Positions 686 through 21,232 of a DNA stretch of 44,059 nucleotides are shown piece after piece. Below the pieces are notes generated by a model. The model was not told the DNA's origin, did no database searches, and saw only the letters and a program-made list of their open reading frames with translations. The DNA lies in assembly GCA_012518465.1 (NCBI GenBank), contig JAAYSD010000020.1, positions 1 to 44,059 of the forward strand, read 5' to 3'. Numbering within the stretch: the stretch's first letter is position 1; every line of letters starts with the position of its first letter. The position numbers and the translations under genes were made by a program. The stretch comes from Clostridiales bacterium (GTDB lineage Bacteria; Bacillota; Clostridia; Oscillospirales; Ruminococcaceae).

Positions 686-753
686 AGATATGATACTAAT
701 AAACAATCACCTATTTTTATAAGTGATTGTATGCAGACTTTGTCTGAAAACTT

Positions 754-790
754 AAAAGGGGAGAGCCAGTTGGCGCTCTCCTTTTATTTT
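754..790 (+). terminator. Rho-independent terminator after the GH94 gene
   Basis: The stem GAGAGCC/GGCGCTCTC is extended by G-C, G-U and A-U pairs (756-766 with 775-785) and followed by TTTTATTTT. It is the first canonical terminator after the stop at 685. A second hairpin with a T6 tail (791-827) follows at once, so the spacer may hold two terminators or a terminator next to another structured element. Confidence 0.65.
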
Positions 791-827
791 CGCACTGCAC
801 ATACGTGCAACAATTAGTGCGTTTTTT
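791..827 (+). other. Nested hairpin with T6 tail inside element copy 1
   Basis: The outer stem CGCACT/AGTGCG encloses an inner stem GCAC-ATAC-GTGC plus the unpaired stretch AACAATT, and TTTTTT follows. It could act as a plus-strand terminator. The inner part matches the inner hairpin at 15450-15461 with a compensating wobble, so it may be a conserved RNA or DNA structure rather than a plain terminator. Confidence 0.45.
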
Positions 828-1001
828 GGCAGATAAATTCACAAAAAACAAATTTATTTTTTTGTACTTTGTTTTCAGTTCGAAATCACCTATTTTTGTA
901 GGTGATTTTAAATTTTTCAATATTAAATTATAATTCTATAAATTACCTTGCGTTAATTGTTATTAACTGCAAATACTTATAATATTGAAAGGAGATATAA
1001 A

Positions 1002-15385: not shown

Positions 15386-15391
15386 AAATAC

Positions 15392-15528
15392 TTGCCAAGA
15401 TATTGGCAAATCAGACTGAAGATAAAGTACAAAAACACAACTAGATGCTGCACGTATGTGTAACGTCTAGTTGTGTGAGTGGGGTAACATAGGGAGAGCA
15501 AGTTTACTTGCCAAGAAATTGGCAAGTA
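15392..15528 (+). repeat. Candidate dispersed intergenic element, copy 2 (bounded by twin hairpins)
   Basis: The gap between the convergent permease and uvrA is filled by three hairpins. The outer two are near copies: TTGCCAA-GATA-TTGGCAA (15392-15409) and CTTGCCAA-GAAA-TTGGCAAG (15507-15526). The middle is an 11-bp perfect stem ACACAACTAGA/TCTAGTTGTGT (15435-15445, 15466-15476) with an inner CAC-GTAT-GTG. The blocks 15415-15435 and around 15441-15463 match copy 1 near 859-879 and 795-817 on the opposite strand. No ORF is credible here. Confidence 0.55.
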
Positions 15529-20365: not shown

Positions 20366-20411
20366 CTTTCTTTATGGCGAGATTATTGATTTAATCACAT
20401 GAGCTTGCAAA

Positions 20412-20490
20412 CAAAGTCTGAAAGCTTATAAGCAGAGAACAACACCTCCACGCACACCTCCACGGGAGGAGTGAATGTTGCTTTTTAGAG
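20412..20490. other. Tandem-repeat hairpin region between uvrB and radC
   Basis: The 162-nt gap holds two direct copies of ACACCTCCACG (20442-20452 and 20454-20464) followed by a single GGAGGAGTG. Either copy can pair with the GGAGG, giving mutually exclusive stems. CAACA/TGTTG (20440-20444, 20476-20480) closes the whole, and CTTTTTAG follows on the plus strand. It is unusually GC-rich for this window. It may simply terminate radC, but on the minus strand no T-run follows. Confidence 0.45.
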
Positions 20491-20527
20491 AAATATATTC
20501 CCTAAAAAACAGATTTAATTATTTTGC

Positions 20528-21232
20528 TTAGTCATACCATATATCGGGCATAAGTCCACTTTTTCTTATGGAGGTTTCTCCATTTATACCGATAATAATA
20601 TGGTCGATTAATCTAATGTTTATATTAGCAAAGGCATTATATATTCTTCTTGTGGTTTGAATATCAGCTTTTGAGGGAATGTGCAGCCCCTTTGGATGGT
20701 TATGCCCAATAGCTACTGTATCACATTTGCTCTTTATAGCTATTTCCATTAAACGACGCATATCAACATTTAGCCTGCCTATATCACCTTGGCATACCTT
20801 TTCATCCAGCACAAGCTCCATTTCGTGATTTAAACATACAATATGCAGCTGCTCTACATCTTCTCCTATTAAAACAGCCTTAAAATAGCTGCAAAGCTTT
20901 TCGGGGGAATCAAGCTTTTCGGCTGAAATGCTTTGCTGCATATATATTTTAGCAATTTCTTTTATAAAAGAAATATGACTTGCTGTGCTTTCACCAATGC
21001 CCGAGATGTTAATTAGCTCATCGTGAGATGCGTCTAAAACACCTCTGATACTGCCAAATTTTTTAATAAGTAAATGTCCTAGTGCATTTGTGTCTTTTCT
21101 AGGATTTGTGAAAAATAGCATTATTTCCATTATTTCGTGCGGCTCAAGTGAAGAAAGTCCATTCTTTATCATTTTTGCTTTCATCCTTTGCCTATGACCT
21201 TTATGTAGGTCTTCATATTTCTTTGTTGACAT
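20528..21232 (-). CDS. radC: RadC-family JAB/MPN domain protein
   Basis: A 234-residue protein (UPF0758). The start is at ATG 21232 behind AAAAGGAACAGTGAA; upstream in-frame codons read as untranslated leader. A helix-hairpin-helix region (GVLDASHDELINISGIGESTASHI) precedes the JAMM metal motif GHNHPKG plus SKAD (HxH-x8-D), the zinc-protease-like site of MPN domains. RadC is no longer thought to act in recombination repair, and its role remains uncertain; mobile-element variants exist, but this one lies in a chromosomal context beside uvrBA. It has its own promoter. Confidence 0.92.
   Translation of the reverse strand: MSTKKYEDLHKGHRQRMKAKMIKNGLSSLEPHEIMEIMLFFTNPRKDTNALGHLLIKKFGSIRGVLDASHDELINISGIGESTASHISFIKEIAKIYMQQSISAEKLDSPEKLCSYFKAVLIGEDVEQLHIVCLNHEMELVLDEKVCQGDIGRLNVDMRRLMEIAIKSKCDTVAIGHNHPKGLHIPSKADIQTTRRIYNAFANINIRLIDHIIIGINGETSIRKSGLMPDIWYD

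Follow-up and report, generated by a model that had tools for sequence, protein, structure and literature searches.

Insertion sequences of the IS1182 family include members already known to target palindromes, and the direct repeats tabulated for this family by curators are long and variable, so that the duplication of whole hairpins may be familiar to them. IS1272, a member of the family, replaces its target stem-loop (PMC5678879), and both IS1272 and TnSha1 insert at hairpins by deleting them without any target duplication (PMC4923244). A route that would instead duplicate the hairpin appears as hypothetical pathway b in the work on IS1272 (PMC5678879), and in the literature that we found on hairpin insertion by IS1182 elements (PMC5678879, PMC4923244) it is replacement that is documented, not duplication. 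Small elements have also been assigned to IS1182, i.e., the ISMac2-related MITEs of 160-169 bp in Methanosarcina (PMC3852290).

The elements described here share features with each of these systems. They resemble IS1272 and TnSha1 in using hairpin targets that are often terminators, with no preference for primary sequence (PMC5678879, PMC4923244), but IS1272 removes the hairpin without target duplication, whereas around our elements it is doubled as a whole. Like the Methanosarcina MITEs they are small non-autonomous IS1182 derivatives, though those reside in an archaeal host and have direct repeats of 0-4 bp instead of whole palindromes (PMC3852290). They make up a new MITE family whose kind is already known and whose mechanism is clear.

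The window, a stretch of 44,059 nucleotides from a Clostridiales draft genome (1.83 Mb in 120 contigs), contains three copies of the element. Element 1 (about 155 bp; 729-883, + strand) has a degraded left end and terminator-like hairpins inside, and it was matched at 727-883 (E=1e-15) by R1, a model that we built from an alignment of ten element copies. Element 2 (94 bp; 15412-15505, - strand; R1 match at 15411-15505, E=2e-5) carries an internal deletion and lacks hairpin 1 as well as most of hairpin 2. A third copy at 20401-20536 (+ strand; R1 match, E=2e-15) is without twin hairpins and is flanked by two genes on the - strand. Pattern searches of the same genome uncovered further copies, and R1 returned about 30 matches with E below 0.01, the weakest of which may be due to chance, so we state the family size as about 25-30 copies. 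These share common ends, range from 76 to 182 bp and contain no gene for a transposase or anything else, as is typical of a multicopy MITE. Their lengths vary through internal deletions, as expected for old non-autonomous elements. In the fullest copy (L075, 182 bp), the left end itself forms a hairpin (GAGTTTGCAGACTTTGTCTGCAAACTC) and is followed by two more hairpins, a T run and the right end (TACTTTGCCTTCAGCCT). R1 did not find the MITE in 298 other genomes of the same family, and a scan of 329 family genomes for the inverted-repeat pattern gave one isolated match only. Scanning genome and viral collections for the exact patterns produced chance matches only, and no Rfam family matched the window.

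The ends of the element link it to IS1182. The right terminal inverted repeat of element 1 (866-882, + strand; ACTTTGTTTTCAGTTCG) has the reverse complement CGAACTGAAAACAAAGT, to be compared with CAGACTGAAGACAAAGT of IS1182, and that of element 2 (15412-15428, - strand; CAGACTGAAGATAAAGT as read on the + strand) is identical at 16/17 positions to the same Streptococcus IS1182 end. Across 20 copies, the right-end consensus CAGACTAAAGACAAAGT agrees with the Streptococcus IS1182 in prophage Javan87 at 16/17 positions and with ISEfa7 at 15/17, and the left-end consensus agrees with the left end of a Sutcliffiella IS1182 at 15/19; the best score in 20,000 shuffles was 13. Because IS1182 members had been reported to target palindromes, we chose their transposases as query for searching family relatives, which revealed IS1182 elements with the ends CAGYCTGTCGAAAA. 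The transposase of one of them (L046) was then used to search plasmids and phages, yielding further elements with the ends CAGACTGTAGACAAAGTCC (ISEfa7, Enterococcus) and CAGACTGAAGACAAAGTCC (Streptococcus phages). ISEfa7 and the Javan87 IS1182 have the terminal repeat CAGACTG(A/T)AGACAAAGT in common with the window MITE, and the two IS elements and the MITE alike are inserted at hairpins with a complete copy of the hairpin on either side, but the IS elements are 1.5-1.7 kb long and code for a transposase of about 430-490 aa, whereas the MITE spans 76-182 bp without any gene.

Judged by these ends, the window elements are best classified as a degenerate IS1182-type MITE family, and we infer that an IS1182 transposase mobilised it. 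Neither the draft genome itself nor the relatives sampled (about 400 genomes) yielded an IS1182 transposase with matching ends; the sole IS1182 match in the genome, L058, is a short relic without MITE-type ends. The transposase that moves the MITE may have been lost from the genome or may lie in an unassembled part of the draft.

Element 1 is bracketed by two palindromes of 24 bp each that are identical at 22/24 positions: AATCACCTATTTTTATAAGTGATT (705-728, + strand) lies on the left, 3' of a GH94 gene, and AATCACCTATTTTTGTAGGTGATT (884-907, + strand) lies on the right, where the original downstream T-rich stretch is kept. Element 2 sits between the convergent genes for a metal permease and UvrA. 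Its two 22-mers, identical at 20/22 positions, are ACTTGCCAAGATATTGGCAAAT at the right end of the element (15390-15411, - strand), with the T-tract serving uvrA on the - strand kept, and ACTTGCCAAGAAATTGGCAAGT at the left end (15506-15527, - strand), which is followed by TATTTTTTATTTTTT on the + strand and therefore serves the metal-transport operon encoded on that strand. An 18-mer of these hairpins has no other occurrence than these two (0.01 matches expected from shuffles), and the hairpin pair of element 1 is unrelated to that of element 2. When the flanks of element 2 are joined, they form a near-perfect bidirectional terminator with a computed folding energy of about -18 kcal/mol on either strand. 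Since the metal-permease and uvrA genes each end with a hairpin adjoining their own T-tract in the filled state as well, insertion at this site was probably close to neutral.

The original prediction had been that every element copy is bracketed by twin palindromes that differ from locus to locus; this describes copies 1 and 2 well, but clear twins are a minority genome-wide. Across 28 copies, the similarity of left and right flanks was above that of all 100,000 shuffled pairings (p about 1e-5). Hairpins with a stem score of at least 9 lay flush with the left end of the element in 7/28 copies and with the right end in 4/28, as opposed to 0.5% of control positions at the same loci, a contrast that is somewhat generous since the control positions include coding sequence, though the shuffled-pair test is free of this weakness. 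The MITE thus behaves like intact IS1182 elements in its insertion at palindromic targets. Four copies (W1, W2, L075 on contig 21 and L089 on contig 115) have clear twin hairpins. A fifth, L092, probably has them too, but they are doubtful in L038 and L094 due to AT-rich flanks, although the scores of these two exceed those of most shuffled pairs. In about nine copies, just one of the two sides has a flush hairpin (e.g., L077, L078, L079, L080, L090, L098, L040 and L044), which means that duplication was not universal or that one twin has often decayed. We would read these one-sided copies as former twins that have lost one hairpin.

The sparse distribution of twins bears on another explanation raised at the outset, namely that the hairpins are a selected pair that exchange arms in RNA and act as a regulatory switch, with a structured RNA core between them. 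Such a switch would agree with the fact that both hairpins of every pair are still palindromic and that the core has strong hairpins followed by T runs. However, the pair is absent from most copies, its sequences are unrelated between loci, and the copies show varied internal deletions and are bounded by transposon inverted repeats. With the same geometry also flanking protein-coding IS1182 elements, the idea of a selected switch found no support and appears exceedingly improbable.

IS200/IS605-type elements, group IIC introns and REP-type elements likewise associate with hairpins and could in principle be the source of the repeats. We consider an origin from any of these equally far-fetched: the terminal inverted repeats are of the DDE type and match IS1182, the target duplications are long, the window has no Rfam match, and 76-182 bp leave no room for an intron or a transposase. 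Two specific candidates had been tried and were rejected. A group IIC intron has a ribozyme core and inserts after terminators without target duplication, but no Rfam family matched and twin duplication is seen; IS200/IS605-derived PATEs have neither terminal inverted repeats nor target duplications, but both features are present here.

Intact IS1182 elements show the same arrangement as the twinned MITE copies. Twin complete palindromes enclose eight of them, which come from a range of Firmicutes. In family relatives, identical complete palindromes lie on both sides of the IS1182 elements L046, L166 and L178, and complete twin palindromes of 21-30 bp flank those of L194, L199, L200, L201 and L203, a set with Enterococcus, Streptococcus phages, Sutcliffiella and Acetoanaerobium as hosts. 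At five other IS1182 elements (L165, L168, L170, L174 and L202) a complete hairpin abuts each end, but the two hairpins differ, possibly as a result of recombination between copies at different sites.

For one intact element, the site could be compared with and without the insertion. In prophage Javan87, two copies of the 26-bp hairpin AACCGCTCTCTTAATCGAGGGCGGTT enclose an IS1182 of 1538 bp, whereas prophage Javan90 has a single AACCGCTCTCTTAATCGAGGGCGGTT without insertion and is identical to Javan87 for 852 bases on the left and 845 on the right. The IS1182 insertion has turned one hairpin into two; this comparison comes from another host and an intact IS1182 with almost the same ends, not from the two window loci. 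No empty counterpart of the IS1182 sites on E. faecium and E. faecalis plasmids was found in the plasmid collection, and neither the GH94-pdaA nor the metal-permease-uvrA gene order was conserved in any family-relative locus returned.

The two prophages also speak to the possibility that the MITE replaces stem-loops in the manner of IS1272 and that the flanking hairpins are something else. IS1272, itself of the IS1182 family, offers a precedent, as it inserts at hairpins and removes them with no duplication of the target (PMC5678879, PMC4923244). Yet W1, W2, L075 and L089 have complete hairpins on both sides that are copies of each other, and the hairpin doubled in Javan87 is still present in the empty site of Javan90, so we regard replacement as very unlikely, if slightly less so than the switch or an unrelated mobile element. 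The evidence fits the duplicating route. We directly observed flush twin hairpins and IS1182-type ends in the MITE, as well as the twins that bracket intact IS1182 elements, one of which could also be compared between a filled and an empty site, and on this basis we are highly confident that the twins are one terminator hairpin duplicated whole by insertion of a non-autonomous MITE of the IS1182 kind that was moved in trans. The suggestion of a hairpin-targeting mobile element that duplicates an entire stem-loop is therefore supported.

In the mechanism that we propose, an IS1182-family DDE transposase would act in trans and insert the MITE at pre-existing hairpins, usually intrinsic terminators. 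The 3' ends of the element would join the two 5' feet of an extruded hairpin or cruciform, and gap repair would then copy the entire hairpin onto both flanks. The transposase's role, the strand-transfer geometry and the repair chemistry are inferred. The twin palindromes at each locus would thus be a whole-palindrome target-site duplication of 22-30 bp, and the pairs would be unlike between loci since a different terminator was hit each time.

Hairpin-duplicating insertion explains a puzzling repeat geometry and how such elements can land in terminators without destroying them, and it is now backed by an empty/filled pair where the authors of the IS1272 study had only a hypothetical drawing. 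It is conceivable, at slightly less than even chances in our view, that insertion by IS1182-family transposases at one type of hairpin target can end in two ways, i.e., replacement as in IS1272 and whole-hairpin duplication, with the latter being a built-in harmless landing. If so, an IS1182 element or MITE that enters a terminator in the duplication mode would end up with a functional terminator on either side. None of the papers that we found documents such a mode with empty sites. A complete hairpin with its own T-tract on each side, as seen from the reconstructed terminator between the metal-permease and uvrA genes, suggests that such elements can accumulate in terminators at low cost. For genome annotation, twin hairpins around a repeat that are unrelated between loci can mean an IS1182-type insertion.

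Several copies showed individual peculiarities. At L041 (G000:C67:23548-23574) and L044 (G000:C119:41523-41549), only the left-end hairpin of the MITE is left; it lies beside T runs and may have been co-opted as a terminator. The upstream flank of L079 (G000:C91:3977-4122) resembles coding sequence, the stop codon of which may come from the first bases of the MITE (TAG). Finally, a TATAAT-like box (TGATATAATA or similar) immediately precedes the copies L038 and L023, so that a flanking promoter may drive the transcription of some MITE copies.
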